This document shows, in pieces, positions 1 through 8,430 of a stretch of 64,000 bases of DNA. The position numbers and the translations under genes are program-made. Location: the NCBI RefSeq assembly GCF_900188485.1, contig NZ_FZPH01000002.1, forward strand, positions 124,001 through 188,000, written 5' to 3'. Origin of the DNA: Asanoa hainanensis (lineage in GTDB: Bacteria > Actinomycetota > Actinomycetes > Mycobacteriales > Micromonosporaceae). The notes beneath the pieces were generated by a model. The model was given only the letters and a program-made list of their open reading frames with translations, was not told where the DNA came from and did no database searches. How positions within the stretch are numbered: the first letter of the stretch is position 1; each line of letters starts with the position of its first letter.

Positions 1-239
1 CGATCGACGGGGTCCGGCACACCATCGCCGGCCGGGTCTGCATGGACCAGGTCGTGCTCGACGTCGGCGACCAGCCGGTCGCGCCCGGCGACGTGGCGAC
101 GCTGTTCGGCCCCGGCGACAACGGCGGCCCGACCGCCGACGACTGGGCCGCCGCGATCGACACGATCAACTATGAGATCGTCACCCGCTTCGGCAGCACC
201 AGAGTTCCACGGGTATACGACAACAAGGACGGTGAATGA
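1..239 (+). CDS. alr: Alanine racemase, C-terminal part (cut by window edge)
   Basis: This is the last 79 or so codons of a PLP-dependent alanine racemase, which converts L-alanine to D-alanine for peptidoglycan in the cytoplasm. The reading frame begins at base 3 and carries the family's conserved GR-x-CMDQ stretch (GRVCMDQVVLDVGD) and the terminal NYEIVTR segment of the beta-barrel domain. The N-terminal PLP domain lies outside the window. The stop overlaps the next start as ATGA, so this gene heads the operon running into tsaE-tsaB-rimI-tsaD. M. tuberculosis has alr in the same position. Confidence 0.93.
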   Translation, partial: IDGVRHTIAGRVCMDQVVLDVGDQPVAPGDVATLFGPGDNGGPTADDWAAAIDTINYEIVTRFGSTRVPRVYDNKDGE

Positions 240-1300
240 GCACCCGACGCCGGGCGGGAATCGTCGGCGCGGTGGTCGGTCTGGCCGCGGCCGGCATCGC
301 CACCGGGATCGCCGTCGAGCGTGCGGTCGTCCGCCGCTCGAAGCGCGGGGTCTCCGACCCGTACGTCGACGAGCCGTTCGATCGGCTGCCCTATGACGAG
401 TCGCTCGCCGTCACCACCGCCGACGGCACCGACATCCACGTCGAGGTGGTCGAGCCCACGGCGGCCGGACCCAAAAAGCCGACCCTCGTCTTCGTCCACG
501 GCTTCTGCCTCGACATGGGCACGTTCCACTTCCAACGCAGCGCGCTGACCGCCCGCGGCGAGCACCGCATGGTCTTCTACGACCAGCCCGGCCACGGCCG
601 CTCCGGCCGGCTGGAGACGGGTGAATACGAGCTGCCGGCGCTCGGCGAGACGCTGCACGCGGTGCTGGCCGAGACCGTCCCGGACGGGCCGCTGATCCTC
701 GTCGGGCACTCGATGGGCGGCATGACCATCATGGCGTTCGCCGAGCTCTACCCGGAGTTCTTCGAGGACCGGGTCAAGGGCTGCGTGCTGATCGCCACCT
801 CCGGCGGCCTGATCGACGAGACCCGACTGGGCCTGCCCGCGCTGATCGGCCGCGTCGGCGGCCCGCTGCTGCCGCTGGTCAACAGCGCGACCCGGCTCAC
901 CGGCCCGACCATCGACCGCGCCCGGGTCGCCGCCACCGACCTGGCCTGGCTGCTCACCCGCCGCTACGGCTTCGGCGAGTCCCGGCCGAGCCCGTCGCTG
1001 GTGTCCTATGTGGAGAAGATGAACTCGCGCACCTCGGTCGACACGGTCGCCCGCTACCTGCGCACCCTCTACACCCACGCCCGCTATCCGGCACTGGCCG
1101 CCCTCGAGCGCACGCCCACCGTGATAATCGTCGGCGACAAAGACATGATCACACCGGTCGCGCACTCCGAGGAGATCCTCCGGCACCTGCCCGACGCGGA
1201 GTTCGTGAAAGTCAACGACAGTGGCCACGTCGTCATGCTCGAACATGCCGACGAGGTCAACTCGACGCTCATCACCTTCCTGGAGAAGATCTCGGCATGA
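236..1300 (+). CDS. Alpha/beta hydrolase with N-terminal membrane anchor
   Basis: The protein has 354 residues. It starts with a positively charged stretch and one hydrophobic segment (about residues 8-27), so it is probably membrane anchored or exported. An alpha/beta-hydrolase fold follows: an HG oxyanion motif (FVHGFC), the nucleophile elbow GHSMGG, and a late Asp (VGDKD) and His (DSGHV) that complete a plausible Ser-Asp-His triad. The substrate is unknown; lipid or ester hydrolysis is a reasonable guess. It overlaps alr by 4 bases and tsaE by 4 bases, so it is translationally coupled in the operon. A hydrolase between alr and tsaE is common in actinobacteria. Confidence 0.85.
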   Translation: MSTRRRAGIVGAVVGLAAAGIATGIAVERAVVRRSKRGVSDPYVDEPFDRLPYDESLAVTTADGTDIHVEVVEPTAAGPKKPTLVFVHGFCLDMGTFHFQRSALTARGEHRMVFYDQPGHGRSGRLETGEYELPALGETLHAVLAETVPDGPLILVGHSMGGMTIMAFAELYPEFFEDRVKGCVLIATSGGLIDETRLGLPALIGRVGGPLLPLVNSATRLTGPTIDRARVAATDLAWLLTRRYGFGESRPSPSLVSYVEKMNSRTSVDTVARYLRTLYTHARYPALAALERTPTVIIVGDKDMITPVAHSEEILRHLPDAEFVKVNDSGHVVMLEHADEVNSTLITFLEKISA

Positions 1301-1782
1301 TCGAGCTGACCACAGTGGACGACACGCGGGCGTTCGGCGCCCGGCTGGCGGCCGTGCTGCGCCCCGGCGACCTCGTCGTGCTCACCGGCCCGCTGGGTGC
1401 CGGCAAGACCGCGCTGGTGCAGGGCATCGGCGCCGGGTTGCGGGTGCTGGGCGACGTCACCTCGCCGACCTTCGTGATCGCCCGGGTGCACCGGCCGGAC
1501 CCGGCCCGTGGCGGCACCGTGCCACTCGTGCACGCCGACGCGTACCGGATCGGCGCCGCCGCCGACCCGCTCGCCGAGATCGACGGCCTCGACCTCGACG
1601 CGTCGATGGACGACGCGGTCACCGTGGTCGAGTGGGGCGAGGGCATCGTCGAGCAACTGCGCGACGACCACCTCCAGGTACGCATCGACCGGCGCGACGA
1701 CGACACCAGGGTGATCGAGCTGGAGCCGACCGGCGGCGACTGGGCCGCCCGCGTCGCGACGCTCACGGAGGATGCCCGGTGA
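1297..1782 (+). CDS. tsaE: tRNA t6A biosynthesis ATPase TsaE
   Basis: The 161-residue product carries the TsaE P-loop GPLGAGKT near residue 32 and the family stretch TSPTFVIARVH after it, with a later VVEWGEG (Walker B region). TsaE works with TsaB and TsaD, both encoded just downstream, to place threonylcarbamoyl on adenosine 37 of ANN-decoding tRNAs. Length and motifs are normal. It overlaps the hydrolase upstream and ung downstream by 4 bases each, showing tight coupling. Confidence 0.95.
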   Translation: MIELTTVDDTRAFGARLAAVLRPGDLVVLTGPLGAGKTALVQGIGAGLRVLGDVTSPTFVIARVHRPDPARGGTVPLVHADAYRIGAAADPLAEIDGLDLDASMDDAVTVVEWGEGIVEQLRDDHLQVRIDRRDDDTRVIELEPTGGDWAARVATLTEDAR

Positions 1783-2462
1783 ACCTGCCCGACCTGTTGC
1801 CGACCGCGTGGCGCACCGCGCTGGAGTCGCACCTCGACCCGGCCGCCACCGCCGACCTGGGCGCGTTCGTGGCCGCCGAATACGCCGCCACCCCGGTCTT
1901 CCCGCCGTTGCCGGACCTGTTCACCGCCTACCGGCTGTGCGAGCCCGCCGACACCCGGGTGGTCATCCTCGGCCAGGATCCGTACCACAAGGCGGGCCAG
2001 GCACATGGGCTCAGCTTCAGCGTGCAGGCCGGCGTACGCGTGCCGCCTTCGCTCCGCAACGTCTACAAGGAGCTGGCCGCCGACCTCGGCGCCGCCGCTC
2101 CCGAGGGCGGTGACCTGCGAGGCTGGGCGACGCAAGGGGTGCTGCTGCTCAACGCGGTGCTCACGGTGCGCGAGGGTGCCGCGGGATCGCACGCCAACAA
2201 GGGTTGGGAGGCGTTCACCGACGCCACCATCCGCGCCCTCCAGGACCAACCCCACCGGGTGGTCTACCTGCTCTGGGGCAGCTACGCCCGCAAGAAGGCG
2301 GCCCTGGTCACCAACCCGGCCCACGTCGTGCTGGAGGCCGGCCACCCGAGCCCGCTCAACCCCCGCAGTTTCCTGGGCAGCCGCCCGTTCAGCGCCGCCA
2401 ACAAGGCGCTCGCCGACGCCGGCCTGACGCCGATCGACTGGAGCCGCTCGGCGGCGGCCTGA
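1779..2462 (+). CDS. ung: Uracil-DNA glycosylase, family 1
   Basis: The GTG start at 1779 overlaps the tsaE stop and gives 227 residues, the usual length. GQDPYH (catalytic Asp67) and HPSPLN (DNA-intercalation loop) are the two diagnostic family-1 motifs; FSV and LLLNAVLTVR are also present. The enzyme removes uracil from DNA to start base-excision repair. It sits inside the t6A operon between tsaE and tsaB, where many actinobacteria have tsaE and tsaB adjacent. Confidence 0.95.
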   Translation: MNLPDLLPTAWRTALESHLDPAATADLGAFVAAEYAATPVFPPLPDLFTAYRLCEPADTRVVILGQDPYHKAGQAHGLSFSVQAGVRVPPSLRNVYKELAADLGAAAPEGGDLRGWATQGVLLLNAVLTVREGAAGSHANKGWEAFTDATIRALQDQPHRVVYLLWGSYARKKAALVTNPAHVVLEAGHPSPLNPRSFLGSRPFSAANKALADAGLTPIDWSRSAAA

Positions 2463-2500
2463 GCGGCACCCACCCCAGCGCGCCGGATAAGGTGCATATC

Positions 2501-3157
2501 GTGCTCGTTCTCGTTCTCGACACGTCGACGCCCGCGGTCACCGCGGCGCTGGCCGACGTCACCCCGACCGGCCACACCGTGCTCGCCGAGCTGCGCACGG
2601 TCGACGGGCGGGCGCACGGCGAGCTGATGGCGCCCGAGATCGACGAGGTGCTGCGCAAGTCCGACGCCACCGTCCGCGACCTCGCGGCGATCGTCGCGGG
2701 CACCGGCCCGGGCCCGTTCACCGGGCTGCGGGTGGGCCTGGTCACGGCGGCGAGCATGGGCCAGGTGCTGGGCATCCCGACGTACGGCGTCTGCTCGCTG
2801 GACGCCATCGGCGGCGTGCCCGGCCAGGTGACCCTGGCCGCCACCGACGCCCGCCGCCGCGAGGTCTACTGGGCCGTCTACGACCAGAGCGGCGCCCGCA
2901 TCGAGGGTCCGCACGTCGACGTGCCGGACGCGGTGGCACACCAGGCCATGGTCGCGGTCGGCGACGGAGCCCTGAAATACGCCGACCGGCTCGGCGTCAA
3001 AGTGCTCGACGAGCCTCGCTACCCGGTGGTCGACGCGTTCGTGCGGCTGGCCGCCGAGCGGATCCGCGCCGGAGCGCCCAGCGAGCCGCTCACCCCTCTC
3101 TACCTCCGCCGCCCGGACGCCGTCGCGGCGGGAGGGCACAAGCCGGTGCTGCAGTGA
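2501..3157 (+). CDS. tsaB: tRNA t6A complex subunit TsaB
   Basis: I chose the GTG at 2501 because AAGGTG lies about 7 bases upstream; another GTG at 2492 is in frame. The product has 218 residues with the ASKHA start (VLVLDTSTPAVTAAL) and the conserved GPGPFTGLRVGL loop. TsaB is the inactive paralogue of TsaD and scaffolds the TsaB-TsaD heterodimer of the t6A pathway. A 38-base gap separates it from ung, and it overlaps rimI by 4 bases (GTGA). Confidence 0.94.
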   Translation: MLVLVLDTSTPAVTAALADVTPTGHTVLAELRTVDGRAHGELMAPEIDEVLRKSDATVRDLAAIVAGTGPGPFTGLRVGLVTAASMGQVLGIPTYGVCSLDAIGGVPGQVTLAATDARRREVYWAVYDQSGARIEGPHVDVPDAVAHQAMVAVGDGALKYADRLGVKVLDEPRYPVVDAFVRLAAERIRAGAPSEPLTPLYLRRPDAVAAGGHKPVLQ

Positions 3158-3594
3158 AGACCGGAACGCTGACCCGTCTGCGCTGGTGGCACATCGCCCA
3201 GTTGCTGCCGATCGAGGAAGACCTGTTCGGCGCCGAGAAGTGGTCGGCCGGCATGTTCTGGAACGAGCTCTCCAGCGGCCACTACTACCTGGTCGCCGAG
3301 GACGAGGGCCGGATACTCGGCTACGGCGGTCTCGCGGTCAACGGCGACGAGGCCTGGATCCAGAACATCGCGGTCGTACGCGACGCGCAGCGCCAGGGCA
3401 TCGGTCGCACGATCCTGGAGGCGTTGCTCGCCGAGGCCGCCCGCCGCAAGGCCCCGGCCGTGCTCCTCGAGGTCGCGGTCGACAACGCCCCGGCCCAGAA
3501 GCTCTACGCCACCTACGGTTTCGAGCCGATCGGCGTACGCCGTGGCTACTACCAACCCAGCAACACCGACGCACTGGTGATGAGACGTGACTGA
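3154..3594 (+). CDS. rimI: Ribosomal protein S18-alanine N-acetyltransferase RimI
   Basis: This 146-residue GNAT enzyme has the acetyl-CoA loop QRQGIG and the terminal Y[15 protein letters not shown] segment typical of RimI. It is expected to acetylate N-terminal residues of ribosomal proteins. The GTG start overlaps the tsaB stop, and its own end overlaps tsaD by 8 bases. The tsaB-rimI-tsaD order is the standard actinobacterial arrangement. Confidence 0.92.
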
Positions 3595-4630
3595 CGAACC
3601 TCTGGTCCTCGGGATCGAGACCTCTTGCGACGAGACGGGCGTGGGCATCGTCCGCGGCACGACGTTGCTCGCCGACGCGCTGGCGTCCAGTGTGGACCTG
3701 CACGCGCGGTTCGGCGGCGTGGTGCCCGAGGTGGCCAGCCGCGCGCACCTCGAGGCCATGGTGCCGACGATGCAGCGGGCGCTCGACGAGGCCGGCGTCA
3801 CGTTGGCCGACATCGACGCGATCGCCGTGACCTCAGGCCCGGGCCTGGCGGGCGCGCTGCTCGTCGGTGTCGCCGCGGCCAAGGGCTACGCGGTCGCCGC
3901 CGAGAAGCCGATCTACGGCGTCAACCACCTGGCCGCTCACGTCGCCGTCGACACCCTGGAGCACGGGCCCCTGCCCAAGCCGGCGATCGCCCTGCTGGTC
4001 TCCGGCGGGCACTCGTCGCTGCTGCTGGTCGACGACCTGGCCGGCGGTGTGGTGCCGCTCGGCTCGACCATCGACGACGCCGCCGGCGAAGCCTTCGACA
4101 AGGTGGCCCGGCTGCTCGGCATGCCGTTCCCCGGCGGTCCGCCGATCGACCGCGCGGCCCGCGACGGGCAGGCCACGATCGCCTTCCCGCGTGGCCTGAC
4201 CGCGGCCAAGGACCAGGCGGCGCACCGCTTCGACTTCTCCTTCTCCGGCCTGAAGACCGCCGTGGCCCGCTGGGTCGAGGCGCGCGAGCGGTCCGGCGAG
4301 CCCGTGCCGGTCAACGACGTGGCGGCCTCGTTCCAGGACGCGGTCTGTGACGTCCTCACCGCCAAGGCGATCGCCGCCTGCCGGCAGCACGGCGTCGACA
4401 CCCTCGTGATCGGCGGAGGCGTGGCGGCCAACTCGCGGCTGCGCGCCATGGCCGAGGAGCGGGCGGCGAAGGTGGGCATCACGGTGCGCGTGCCGCGGCC
4501 CAAGCTGTGCACCGACAACGGCGCGATGGTCGCCGCGCTCGGGTCGCACCTGGTCGCCGCCGGGGTCCGGCCGAGCCGGCTGGATCTGCCGGCCGACTCC
4601 GCGATGCCGTTGACCCTCGTGAGTGTGTAA
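3587..4630 (+). CDS. tsaD: tRNA N6-adenosine threonylcarbamoyltransferase TsaD
   Basis: The 347-residue protein begins with [11 protein letters not shown], contains the metal-binding HLAAH motif, [10 protein letters not shown] and [10 protein letters not shown], and matches the TsaD family in length. It catalyses transfer of the threonylcarbamoyl group to A37 of tRNA together with TsaB and TsaE from the same operon. The GTG start at 3587 lies within the end of rimI. The stop overlaps the start of the next small gene (TAATG). Confidence 0.96.
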
Positions 4631-4939: not shown

Positions 4940-6637
4940 ATGCGCCCCTTACCCGTCGGCGATCCCGGCGACCCCGACGTCCGGTCGGCCACGCGTTATC
5001 TCCTGTGGCTGGCGGCTCGCACCTGGCCGTCCCTGCTGGCCGCGATGGGGTTCGCGACGCTCTGGTTGGTCAGCCAGGCGCTGATCCCCGCCACCGTCGG
5101 CCGGGCCATCGACGCGGGCCTGTCCGCGCGCGACCGCGACGGCCTGCTGCGCTGGGGCGCGGTGCTGTTCGGCCTCGGCCTGGTCACCGGCGTGAGCGGC
5201 GTCCTGCGCCACCGGATGGCGGCGTTCAACTACCTGTCCGCCATCTACCGCACCGTCCAGCTCACGGTGCAGCAGGCCAACCGGATCGGCGCCACCCTGC
5301 CCAAACGGCTGTCCACGGGCGAGGTGGTCAGCATCGGCACCTCGGACATCAACCACATCGGCGGCGCGCTCGACATCACCGCCCGGGGCACCGGCTCGCT
5401 GGTCGCCGTGGTCACCGTCGCCGTCATCCTGCTCACCACGTCGGTGCCGCTCGGCCTGGTGGTCGTGGTCGGCGTGCCGGTGATGATGCTCATCGCGGGC
5501 GCCCTGATCAAACCGCTCCAGCGCCGCCAGCAGGTCTACCGCGACCAGGAGGGCAAGCTGACCACCCGGGCCGGCGACCTGGTCGCCGGCCTGCGGGTGC
5601 TGCGCGGCGTCGGCGGCGAGGCGACCTTCGCCGGCCGCTACCGCGCCGAGTCGCAGGATCTGCGGTCAGCGGGGGTACGGGTCGCCCGGATCGAGTCGCT
5701 CCTCGCGGCCTCGGAGATCCTGCTGCCCGGCATGTTCCTGGTGCTGGTCACCTGGCTCGGCGCCCGGTTCGCCCTGCGCGGCGAGATCACCGCCGGCGAG
5801 CTCGTGGCCCTCTACGGCTACGCGGCGTTCCTGGTCAGCCCGCTGCGCCAGCTCACCGAGGCGATCGACCGGCTGACCCGGGGGCACGTGGCGGCCCGCC
5901 GGGTGGTGCGGATGTTCACCCTCGTGCCGGAGTTCACGTCGCCGGCCGCGCCGGTGACCGCACCCCGCGGCCCACTGGTCGACGCCGAGTCCGGCCTGAC
6001 CGTCCAACCCGGACGGTTGACGGCCATCGCCGCCCGAGAGCCCGGTGACGCGGCCGCGATCGCCGACCGGCTCGGCCGGTTCGCCGACGGGCGCGTGACC
6101 CTGTCCGGCGTACCCCTGGCCGACCTCGACCTGGCCGACTTGCGACGGCGGATCCTGTTGGCCGACAACGACGCCCGGCTGTTCGCCGGCCCGCTGCGCG
6201 CCGAGCTCGACCCGGCGGGCAAGGGCGACCGGCCGGTCGCCGACGCCCTCGACGCCGCCAGCGCGGTCGACGTGGTGGACGCGCTGCCGGACGGGCTCGA
6301 CGCCTTGGTCGCCGAGCGCGGCCGCGAGTTCTCCGGCGGTCAGCAGCAGCGGCTCCGGCTGGCCCGCGCGCTCGTCGCCGACCCGGAGACGCTGGTCCTG
6401 GTCGAGCCGACCAGCGCCGTCGACGCGCACACCGAGGCCCGGATCGCGGCCCGGCTCGGCGCCGCGCGCGCCGGCCGCACCACGGTCGTCTGCACGACCA
6501 GCCCGCTGGTGCTCGACCAGGCCGACGAGGTCAACTTCGTCGCCGACGGCCGGGTGGTAGCGGCGGGCACCCACCGCGACCTACTCCGCCGGCGCCCCGA
6601 CTACGCCGCCGCCGTCACCCGGGAGGAAGACCAATGA
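4940..6637 (+). CDS. ABC exporter half-transporter with degenerate nucleotide site (subunit A)
   Basis: The 565-residue protein has an N-terminal exporter membrane domain with about six segments (to about residue 310) fused to an ATPase domain. That domain keeps the ABC signature FSGGQ (464-468) but has lost most elements that grip ATP. The Walker A loop reads AAREPGDAA with Asp370 at the lysine position, the Walker B aspartate is Val (LVLVEPT), the Q-loop Gln is replaced (DNDARLF) and the switch His is Thr (VCTTSP). It overlaps the next gene by 4 bases and surely pairs with it. The exported substrate is unknown. Confidence 0.9.
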   Translation: MRPLPVGDPGDPDVRSATRYLLWLAARTWPSLLAAMGFATLWLVSQALIPATVGRAIDAGLSARDRDGLLRWGAVLFGLGLVTGVSGVLRHRMAAFNYLSAIYRTVQLTVQQANRIGATLPKRLSTGEVVSIGTSDINHIGGALDITARGTGSLVAVVTVAVILLTTSVPLGLVVVVGVPVMMLIAGALIKPLQRRQQVYRDQEGKLTTRAGDLVAGLRVLRGVGGEATFAGRYRAESQDLRSAGVRVARIESLLAASEILLPGMFLVLVTWLGARFALRGEITAGELVALYGYAAFLVSPLRQLTEAIDRLTRGHVAARRVVRMFTLVPEFTSPAAPVTAPRGPLVDAESGLTVQPGRLTAIAAREPGDAAAIADRLGRFADGRVTLSGVPLADLDLADLRRRILLADNDARLFAGPLRAELDPAGKGDRPVADALDAASAVDVVDALPDGLDALVAERGREFSGGQQQRLRLARALVADPETLVLVEPTSAVDAHTEARIAARLGAARAGRTTVVCTTSPLVLDQADEVNFVADGRVVAAGTHRDLLRRRPDYAAAVTREEDQ

Positions 6638-8430
6638 GCCGGCAGCTTCCCATCGCTGACGCGCAGGAGGTGCGGCGGTACGCGCGTGCGCTGGTGCGGC
6701 GCCATCCCGGGCAGTTGGCGCTGGCGCTCGGCCTGCACGGCCTGGCCGCGGTCGCCGGCCTGGTCGCCCCGCGCCTGCTCGGCAACCTGGTCGAAGGCCT
6801 GTCCACCGGCACCACCACCCGCACCGTCGACGAGGTCGCCATGGCCATCGCGGCGTTCGTGGTGACGCAGGCGGTGCTGACCCGGTTCGCCGCCTTCTGC
6901 TCGGCCCGGCTCGGCGAACGGGTGCTGGCCGAGCTGCGCGAGGAGTTCGTCGACCGGATCCTGGCCATCCCACTGTCCACGGTGGAGCGGGCTGGCACCG
7001 GCGACCTGCTCACCCGCACCTCGCGCGACGTCTCGGCGCTGTCGCACAGCGTCCGCTTCGCGGTGCCGGAGATCCTGATCGCGACCCTCACCGCGGTGTT
7101 CGTCGTCGCCGCGATCCTGCTCACCAGCCCGCTGCTGGCCCTGCCCTGCCTGGTCGCGGTGCCGATGCTCTGGTTCGGCACCCGGTGGTACCTGCGCCGT
7201 GCGCCGGCCGGCTACCTCCGCGAGAACGCCGCCTACTCCGACATCACCGACGGCATCAGCGAGACCGTCGAAGGATCCCGCACCACGGAGGCGCTGCGCC
7301 TGCAGGACCGCCGCCGGGTGCGCACCGACAGCGACATCGCCCGGTCGTACGCCGCGGAGAAGTACACCCTGATGCTGCGTACCGTCTGGTTCCCGATCGT
7401 CGAGGTCGGCTACGTGGTGCCGGTCGTGGCGACACTGCTCCTCGGCGGCTGGTTCTACCTCGAGGGCTGGGTGACCCTGGGCGAGGTGACCGCCGCGACC
7501 CTCTACGTGCAGGCCCTCGTCGACCCGATCGACCGGTTGCTCTCCTGGCTCGACGAGCTCCAGGTCGGCGGCGCCTCGCTGGCCCGCCTGCTCGGTGTCG
7601 CGGGCCGGCCCGCACCGACCCCGACCCCGACCCAGACACCGGCCGGTCGTGGTCAGCGCCTGGTCGCCGAGGACGTGCGATACGCCTATGTGGAGGGTCG
7701 CGAGGTGCTGCACGGCATCGACCTGACCGTCGAGCCGGGGGAGCGGCTGGCGATGGTCGGCCCGTCCGGTGCCGGGAAGTCGACGCTGGGTCGCCTGCTG
7801 GCCGGCATCCACGCGCCCACGGGCGGTTCGGTCACCGTCGGCGGCGTCCCGTTGGCGTCGCTGCCACTCGACGAGCTTCGCTCGCACGTCGCCCTGGTGA
7901 CCCAGGAACACCACGTCTTCATCGGTACGGTCCGCGACAACCTCGTGATGGCTCGGCCGGGCGCGACCGACGAGGAGGTGCGGTCGGCGCTGGCGGCGGT
8001 CGACGCCCTCGACTGGGTCACGGCATTGCCGTCCGATTTGGACACCGTGGTCGGCACCGGCGGCCATCCCGTGCCGCCGGCCCAGGCCCAGCAGCTCGCC
8101 CTGGCCCGGCTGGTGCTGGCGGACCCGCACACCCTGGTGCTCGACGAGGCCACCTCGCTGATCGACCCGCGGGCGGCCCGGCACCTGGAGCGGTCACTCG
8201 CCGCAGTCCTGCAGGGGCGCACCGTCATCGCCATCGCGCACCGGCTGTTCTCGGCGCACGACGCCGACCGGGTCGCGGTCGTGGAGGACGGGCGGATCAC
8301 GGAGCTCGGTTCGCACGCCGAGCTCGTCGCGGCCGGTGGCTCGTACGCCGCGCTCTGGCGTTCGTGGCATGGAGAGGAAGGGCATTCGGCCCAGAAACGG
8401 CGTCAAAGTCCTTATTCGACAGTGGCGTAA
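6634..8430 (+). CDS. ABC exporter half-transporter with intact Walker sites but lost signature (subunit B)
   Basis: The 598-residue protein has the same membrane-plus-ATPase layout. Here Walker A (GPSGAGKST, Lys382), the Q-loop (VTQE), Walker B (LVLDEATS) and the switch His (AIAHRL) are intact, while the LSGGQ signature is VPPAQ (480-484). The changes are exactly complementary to the upstream subunit. The heterodimer should therefore have one complete ATP site (Walker A/B from this protein, signature from its partner) and one dead site. The ATGA overlap supports fixed stoichiometry. It is likely a multidrug, lipid or peptide exporter. Confidence 0.9.
   Translation: MSRQLPIADAQEVRRYARALVRRHPGQLALALGLHGLAAVAGLVAPRLLGNLVEGLSTGTTTRTVDEVAMAIAAFVVTQAVLTRFAAFCSARLGERVLAELREEFVDRILAIPLSTVERAGTGDLLTRTSRDVSALSHSVRFAVPEILIATLTAVFVVAAILLTSPLLALPCLVAVPMLWFGTRWYLRRAPAGYLRENAAYSDITDGISETVEGSRTTEALRLQDRRRVRTDSDIARSYAAEKYTLMLRTVWFPIVEVGYVVPVVATLLLGGWFYLEGWVTLGEVTAATLYVQALVDPIDRLLSWLDELQVGGASLARLLGVAGRPAPTPTPTQTPAGRGQRLVAEDVRYAYVEGREVLHGIDLTVEPGERLAMVGPSGAGKSTLGRLLAGIHAPTGGSVTVGGVPLASLPLDELRSHVALVTQEHHVFIGTVRDNLVMARPGATDEEVRSALAAVDALDWVTALPSDLDTVVGTGGHPVPPAQAQQLALARLVLADPHTLVLDEATSLIDPRAARHLERSLAAVLQGRTVIAIAHRLFSAHDADRVAVVEDGRITELGSHAELVAAGGSYAALWRSWHGEEGHSAQKRRQSPYSTVA

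Follow-up and report, generated by a model that had tools for sequence, protein, structure and literature searches.

Two half-exporter genes at the locus

The window, a stretch of 64,000 nucleotides from Asanoa hainanensis (contig C28, positions 124001 to 188000; host genome of 8.6 Mb in 44 contigs), contains two adjacent open reading frames (ORFs) on the forward strand that encode the subunits, here called A and B, of a putative heterodimeric ATP-binding cassette (ABC) exporter. Subunit A (4940-6637) is a half-exporter of 565 amino acids and subunit B (6634-8430) one of 598 amino acids, and the two frames share an ATGA at 6634-6637. In each chain, an ABC_membrane match (PF00664) lies N-terminal to an ABC_tran match (PF00005), both above the cut-off, which is the arrangement of type IV (exporter-fold) half-transporters, with a transmembrane domain (TMD) followed by a nucleotide-binding domain (NBD) in one chain. 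The ABC_tran match of B spans profile positions 1 to 137, and that of A starts only at position 38 of 137, past the Walker A part of the profile. Compared with Asanoa ishikariensis, A is 96% and B is 94% identical.

Complementary motif losses in A and B

The motifs of A were assigned by alignment to those of B, and the positions of the Lys and Gln columns in A are alignment dependent. Conservation was read from a broad alignment of 342 exporter proteins (149 A-type, 150 B-type, and 43 other), whose composition is given below; all motifs lie on the forward strand. The ATP-side face of B is intact. Its A-loop DVRYAYVEG with Tyr352 (7672-7698), Walker A motif VGPSGAGKST (7756-7785), and Q-loop LVTQEHHVF (7894-7920) present the Tyr, Lys, and Gln, respectively, in 149/149 readable B rows, and its Walker B/D-loop segment LVLDEATSLID (8134-8166) and switch AIAHRLFS with His536 (8230-8253) present the Asp and Glu and the His in 148/148. 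The signature of B is lost: residues 480 to 484 (8071-8085) read VPPAQ, aligned as PVPPAQ, and SGG occurs in 0/149 readable B rows.

Subunit A shows the reverse, with a dead ATP-side face and a live signature and D-loop face. In the expected A-loop region (residues 347 to 354; 5978-6001), the column of B Tyr352 is a gap in 149/149 A-type rows, a loss that the sequence-only reading of this DNA had not mentioned. The former Walker A motif, AAREPGDAAA (residues 364 to 373; 6029-6058), has neither the Lys nor the GxxGxG pattern, all three P-loop Gly positions being replaced. Asn410 stands for the Gln in the Q-loop LADNDARLF (residues 407 to 415; 6158-6184), the Asp is gone from the Walker B/D-loop segment LVLVEPTSAVD (residues 485 to 495; 6392-6424), and Thr519 stands for the His in the switch region VVCTTSPL (residues 516 to 523; 6485-6508; aligned as VCTTSPLV). 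Retained are the catalytic Glu489 (6404-6406), which the sequence-only reading had also passed over, the D-loop SAVD, and the signature FSGGQ (residues 464 to 468; 6329-6343; aligned as EFSGGQ), which serves the live site. The sequence-only reading had listed the losses of Walker B Asp, Q-loop Gln, and switch His in A next to an intact FSGGQ, and had described B as intact except for the change of LSGGQ to VPPAQ, and the alignment bears out both descriptions. It was also right that the Walker A Lys is lost but assigned it to Asp370, whereas the Lys column corresponds to Ala371 and Asp370 occupies the column of the last P-loop Gly.

In an ABC dimer, the D-loop reaches the Walker A motif of the opposite subunit. 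In each composite site, the Walker A, A-loop, Q-loop, Walker B, and switch of one subunit oppose the signature of the partner, and the D-loop sits in the middle of the interface (PMC7756269). Because A is without the pocket set and keeps the signature and D-loop, and B is the reverse, site 1 (A pocket and B signature) is defective on both faces, and only site 2 (B pocket and A signature) is whole. The defects of the two subunits are thus complementary and fall in a single composite site, as the sequence-only reading had claimed, and the pair has the composition of a degenerate-site heterodimer, with one canonical and one noncanonical composite site.

Conservation across actinobacterial relatives

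A contig scan with A gave at least 558 relatives, and the best 80 loci together with the window form a near set of 81. All 80 records are titled as actinobacteria, in genera that we take to belong mostly to the Micromonosporaceae, Streptosporangiaceae, or Thermomonosporaceae, and a relative of B is present at 80/80 loci, truncated at the contig edge in L083. The Walker A Lys, Q-loop Gln, switch His, and Walker B Asp are absent from A in 81/81 sequences, which rules out chance, and the catalytic Glu and the signature stretch REFSGGQQQR are present in 81/81.

The broad set adds 60 loci hand-chosen across the identity range from an even class sample, in which 172/394 genomes match A at an E value of ≤1e-60, mostly uninspected matches. 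It further adds 13 stretches with the host's own exporters and 20 transitional loci taken from a search of the phylum, in which 276/396 genomes match at an E value of 1e-50, a cut that also lets in ordinary exporters. L134 and L082 are the same sequence from two collections; removal of the duplicate leaves 148 A and 149 B rows and does not alter the outcome. An extra, unreadable B fragment in L170 and a cut B in L028 appear as gaps.

In A-type rows of the broad set, the Walker A Lys and the switch His are absent from 149/149 and the Q-loop Gln from 148/149, L175 alone having Gln. The three P-loop columns contain at least one Gly in 5/149 rows and all three in 0/149. Both SGG and the D-loop Asp are present in 149/149. 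The Walker B Asp is absent from 128/149, although the adjoining catalytic position (residue 489) carries a carboxylate in 149/149 (Glu in 134 and Asp in 15). The losses of the two subunits co-occur in the 148 loci in which both were read (147 without the duplicate), the result of an orthologue comparison that the sequence-only reading had proposed as a check. By score limits, L083 has A only and L099 has B only, and a frame encoding an A-like NBD adjoins B in L099. The Lys is present in 42/42 readable rows of the 43 other-type proteins, and intermediates with a half-kept Walker A did not turn up in the broad set. The ATGA overlap is found in 60/141 pairs with automatically chosen starts, and the B-type D-loop Asp is replaced by Gly in 8 rows.

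The ratio of nonsynonymous to synonymous substitution rates (dN/dS) of the window against A. ishikariensis is 0.13 for the A NBD, 0.13 for the A TMD, 0.14 for the B TMD, and 0.07 for the B NBD, which places A under purifying selection. Across the broad set, both subunits show little or no variation at the catalytic residues of the live site, with S465, G466, G467, and D495 of A and K382, Q424, D504, E505, and H536 of B all at 100%, whereas those of the dead site are mostly variable, residues 364 to 373 of A being conserved at 25 to 87%. The dead face of A has a new motif of its own (PxDA, N, and TTSPL) that is well kept in the near set (P368, Asp/Glu370, and N410 each in 79/81 and S521, P522, and L523 in 81/81) and partly in the broad set (P368, 87%; D370, 56%; N410, 66%; S521, 100%; P522, 98%; L525, 100%).

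Predicted structure of subunit A

The AlphaFold2 (AF2) model of A, made from 48 rows, has a predicted local distance difference test score (pLDDT) of 86.3. It presents six long transmembrane helices (residues 29 to 62, 66 to 116, 134 to 167, 169 to 221, 227 to 279, and 285 to 326) followed by an NBD, as in the type IV fold, and matches 9iqg_A with a Z score of 27.4 (551 residues; 6.5 Å). The whole-chain matches are headed by MsRv1273c/72c (Z, 27.4) and TM287/288 (Z, 27.1), which are level with others. The fold of the NBD is retained, at 2.0 Å over 219 residues to ComA (3vx4_D) and 1.9 Å over 220 residues to ATP-bound HlyB (2fgk_A). In this model, the strand at 360 to 365 runs into the helix at 368 to 378 with two residues between them, so that the phosphate-binding loop of A is predicted to be down to two residues. 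The AF2 model of B is weaker (pLDDT, 73.9), with a poor NBD, and was excluded from motif geometry.

Phylogeny of the two subunits

Trees were built on transmembrane columns only, with no motif columns included. The first tree gave A alone a support of 91, with the long row L098 joined to it, and the second was built without the rows of L098, L100, L094, L089, and L097, which have long or odd branches. In the second tree, A forms one clade (100/100). The A-like subunits of mildly degenerate heterodimers (mild-A) group with A at 97/87, the mild row L090 lying outside, and the partner subunits (mild-B) group with B at 100/92. The latter group includes L101, which has a branch of 6.26 and was taken as an artifact; the truncated B of L083, classed as other by score, falls within the B clade. 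Taken by themselves, the mild-A rows are not monophyletic (L090, L242, and L244 lie outside). The A clade adjoins the Glu-to-Asp subunits of ordinary heterodimers and B adjoins their partners. Because trees free of motif columns place A and B beside the subunits of mildly degenerate heterodimers, loss of the pocket probably arose once, on the stem of the actinobacterial clade.

The mild heterodimers (14 transitional loci, L231 to L244), whose subunits form sister groups to A and B on these trees, differ from A:B in that Walker A is intact in both subunits (14/14). One of their subunits has Glu for the Q-loop Gln in 11/14 loci and Asp for the catalytic Glu in 12/14, and the signature of the partner reads LSAGE in 11, LSAGQ in 2, and LAAGE in 1. 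On the first tree, loss of the Lys and loss of the A-loop take one change each versus four for loss of the Walker B Asp, which makes it most likely that the Lys and A-loop were lost early and once and that the Asp underwent several losses or regains. The switch His changes four times, three other-type rows also being without it, and the signature class six times, with two B rows that have a Gly at one position scored as mild by rule.

The host has two further dismantled pairs, one on contig C32 (AADDPGTGAA in the former Walker A and GPADAQQ in the lost signature) and one on contig C43 (VTTEIAAADA and LTASQAQQ, with the D-loop AEAG). On the first tree, the C43 pair groups with L225 to L230 as a second class, which L099 joins by motifs. 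In this class (L095, L099, and L225 to L230), the D-loop of B reads AEAG, and the D-loop Asp of the dead pocket face is lost as well.

Proposed mechanism

From their adjacency in 148 loci and their complementary motifs, we infer that A and B pair as a heterodimer of the type IV (MsbA/TM287-288) fold, presumably working in the direction of export. By motif logic, neither homodimer would contain a complete ATP site, and A:B would form exactly one. In this live site, the Walker A, A-loop, Q-loop, Walker B, and switch of B would be closed by the FSGGQ and D-loop of A, and one ATP would be bound and hydrolyzed per cycle. The second interface, formed by the remodeled P-loop of A against PPAQAQQ of B, would hold no nucleotide and would serve as a protein-only hinge, which holds the NBDs in contact as the live site cycles between open and closed. 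Judged from sequence and the model of A, both of which argue against a nucleotide at the degenerate site, it is fairly probable that A:B is an exporter with a single catalytic ATP site, its other site being a hinge made of protein only and probably empty of nucleotide. The broader proposal, that a large actinobacterial clade of ABC exporters completes its transport cycle on a single ATP per dimer with the second site as a protein-only hinge, seems to us somewhat likely. The A:B family would then be the end point of the degenerate-site design, its ancestors being mildly degenerate heterodimers whose pocket was dismantled on the actinobacterial stem and the new state maintained; the arrangement looks like a stable one-engine design and not decay.

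ATP binds at the degenerate site of TM287/288, TmrAB, and BmrCD through Walker A. These exporters and MsRv1273c/72c, which are among the best structural matches of A, resemble A:B in having TMD-NBD halves and one canonical and one degenerate composite site, but in A:B the P-loop, A-loop, Q-loop Gln, switch His, and signature are all gone from the latter. In MsRv1273c/72c, Walker A likewise mediates ATP binding at the degenerate site, and the NBDs are partly dimerized at this site in intermediate states (PMC12038006). In such exporters, the degenerate site is thought to be a standing ATP-holding hinge, and a current model derives its hinge function from ATP that remains bound (PMC7756269), whereas in the A:B family the hinge appears to be made by protein contact instead. 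A conserved exporter family without a recognizable pocket would test whether the hinge requires ATP, and if the proposal is true, ATP in the degenerate site is dispensable for alternating access. The family would also offer a one-site system for measuring the ATP cost per transport cycle, and with its mild sister groups it forms an evolutionary series from weak to complete loss. Human ABCG5/G8 also has a degenerate site with an altered Walker A Lys and signature (PMC7756269), but there the Lys is replaced by Arg and the protein belongs to another subfamily. No prokaryotic exporter with a dismantled P-loop was found among the papers listed in the literature searched, which was mostly at the level of abstracts, with most subscription journals outside its coverage, and searches of the same scope gave nothing usable on the labyrinthopeptin (LabT1 and LabT2) and SapB exporters as characterized members.

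The curated NCBIfam cut-offs for CydC and CydD are not reached by A (143/329 and 118/435 bits) or by B (223/329 and 227/435 bits), nor is that for MsbA (TIGR02203, 602 bits; A, 196; B, 280). Partial NBD matches to the PADLOC models mad3 (A, 2e-14; B, 3e-17) and mad8 (B, 5e-6) were read as shared ATPase motifs, and assignment to a defense system was rejected.

Alternative interpretations

Several points weigh against the proposed mechanism. Since similarity to A was the criterion for choosing loci and the A and B labels rest on profiles of the near set, an intact relative would have been classed as other. The Walker B Asp is still present in 21/149 A rows, the B signature of L172 (NGGQ) comes nearest to a working signature among the B rows, and the catalytic position of A carries Glu or Asp throughout, though no use would be expected for it in a dead site. 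Among the structural matches of A, exporters are tied with the importers YbtPQ (Z, 26.9) and IrtAB (Z, 26.6), and fold ranking cannot separate export from import. A further point comes from yeast Pdr5, which retains a glycine-rich P-loop. In its deviant site, the Lys is replaced by Cys, the Glu by Asn, and the His by Tyr, and the signature reads LNVEQ, yet ATP is seen there by cryo-electron microscopy (PMC8421411, PMC7756269). In view of this example, two statements of the sequence-only reading are not supported as they stand, namely, that known degenerate sites are only weakly degenerate and that losses of this kind make binding impossible.

The dismantled site of A:B could, by analogy with Pdr5, permanently hold a structural ATP or ADP, in which case two nucleotides would be bound and one never turned over. 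The carboxylate kept at the catalytic position of A in every row is in keeping with such a site, and Pdr5 and its PDR relatives of fungi and plants share with A:B a near-complete loss on both faces of one site (PMC8421411, PMC7756269). Pdr5 differs, however, in being a full-length protein with the reverse domain order, in having lost the Glu that A keeps, and in holding ATP in the deviant site, whereas A:B has lost the P-loop itself (no A row has all three Gly) and the A-loop (gapped in every row), and the phosphate loop is absent from the model of A. We therefore regard a permanently occupied site as unlikely, and it is plausible that nucleotide binding at site 1 is impossible in this particular case. 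The suggestion that the site is purely structural draws partial support from the loss of P-loop, A-loop, Gln, His, and opposing signature and from the two-residue turn in the AF2 model. A:B may work like Pdr5, yet it falls outside the PDR/ABCG family, whose NBD-before-TMD order is found in neither A nor B, the TMD being first in both.

A:B might also be a type IV-fold importer or a nontransporting regulator. IrtAB and YbtPQ, which are importers with an exporter fold, give this idea its footing through the tie mentioned above. Against it, the nearest relatives of A:B on the trees, which do not include OmrDE itself, are heterodimers of the kind that the multidrug exporter OmrDE matches in motif pattern, its motifs being reported as conserved except for a change of Glu to Asp in OmrD (PMC11109279), and one family member lies in a peptide antibiotic cluster. 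We consider an importer or regulator improbable. There is an equally slender chance that the remodeled pocket is a regulatory site for another ligand or a partner protein. The conserved residues of the dead face in the near set (P368, position 370, N410, and S521 to L523) would fit a binding site, but P368, D370, and N410 drift in the broad set, though S521 and P522 do not, and plain packing accounts for the same pattern of conservation. Decay of A into a pseudogene-like subunit in this strain, which many lost positions in one gene and a stop codon inside the match of a distant A relative (L191) might suggest, is refuted because identical losses are shared across genera in 149/149 A rows, the frame is open in the window, and the dN/dS of the A NBD is 0.13, so that the decay test set by the sequence-only reading leaves its proposal standing.

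Genomic context

Searching plasmids at the protein level yielded 9 records with an A relative, and the pairs are dismantled in all 4 that were inspected. On the Streptomyces globosus plasmid NZ_CP030864.1 (L265, 11929-15539), the dismantled pair lies in a pheganomycin-type cluster for a ribosomally synthesized and posttranslationally modified peptide (RiPP), where it adjoins genes for a P450, an aminotransferase, dpgA to dpgC, a radical S-adenosylmethionine methyltransferase, a pheganomycin-family precursor, and a PGM1-related ligase. Such a RiPP cluster was not seen at the other 3 inspected plasmid loci. The cluster hints at peptide or antibiotic export for the L265 member only, and no other context found for the family suggests a function.

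Among the near loci (L009 to L088), mostly downstream of B, an S9 prolyl oligopeptidase cluster occurs in 50/81 and a PIG-L deacetylase cluster in 50/81, with both in 49; each cluster was typed from one scanned representative, and the PIG-L deacetylase is presumably MshB-like. A mycothiol link was not used as evidence of substrate because both clusters are missing from the window and the MshB model match of the host that exceeds the cut-off is on another contig, the one on the window contig being below the cut-off and about 169 kb away. In a neighbor survey of 20 wider loci, ORFs were kept by a G+C frame rule, which fails for low-GC genomes, and matched across loci. It recovered guaA in 5 loci and guaB in 4, both identified by Pfam scans of L252 and L253 only, other ORFs also recur, for example, in L247 and L262, and in L260 only 4 ORFs were kept, the pair not among them. 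This survey has too many gaps to reveal a partner gene or to rule one out.

The neighbors of A and B in the window give no hint of substrate. Downstream of B lie a gene for a DUF1707 protein on the opposite strand and a probable sugar ABC importer. Directly upstream of A, at 236-4630 of the window, are genes for an alpha/beta hydrolase, tsaE, a uracil-DNA glycosylase, a TsaD-family protein that is tsaB-like by position, an acetyltransferase, and tsaD.

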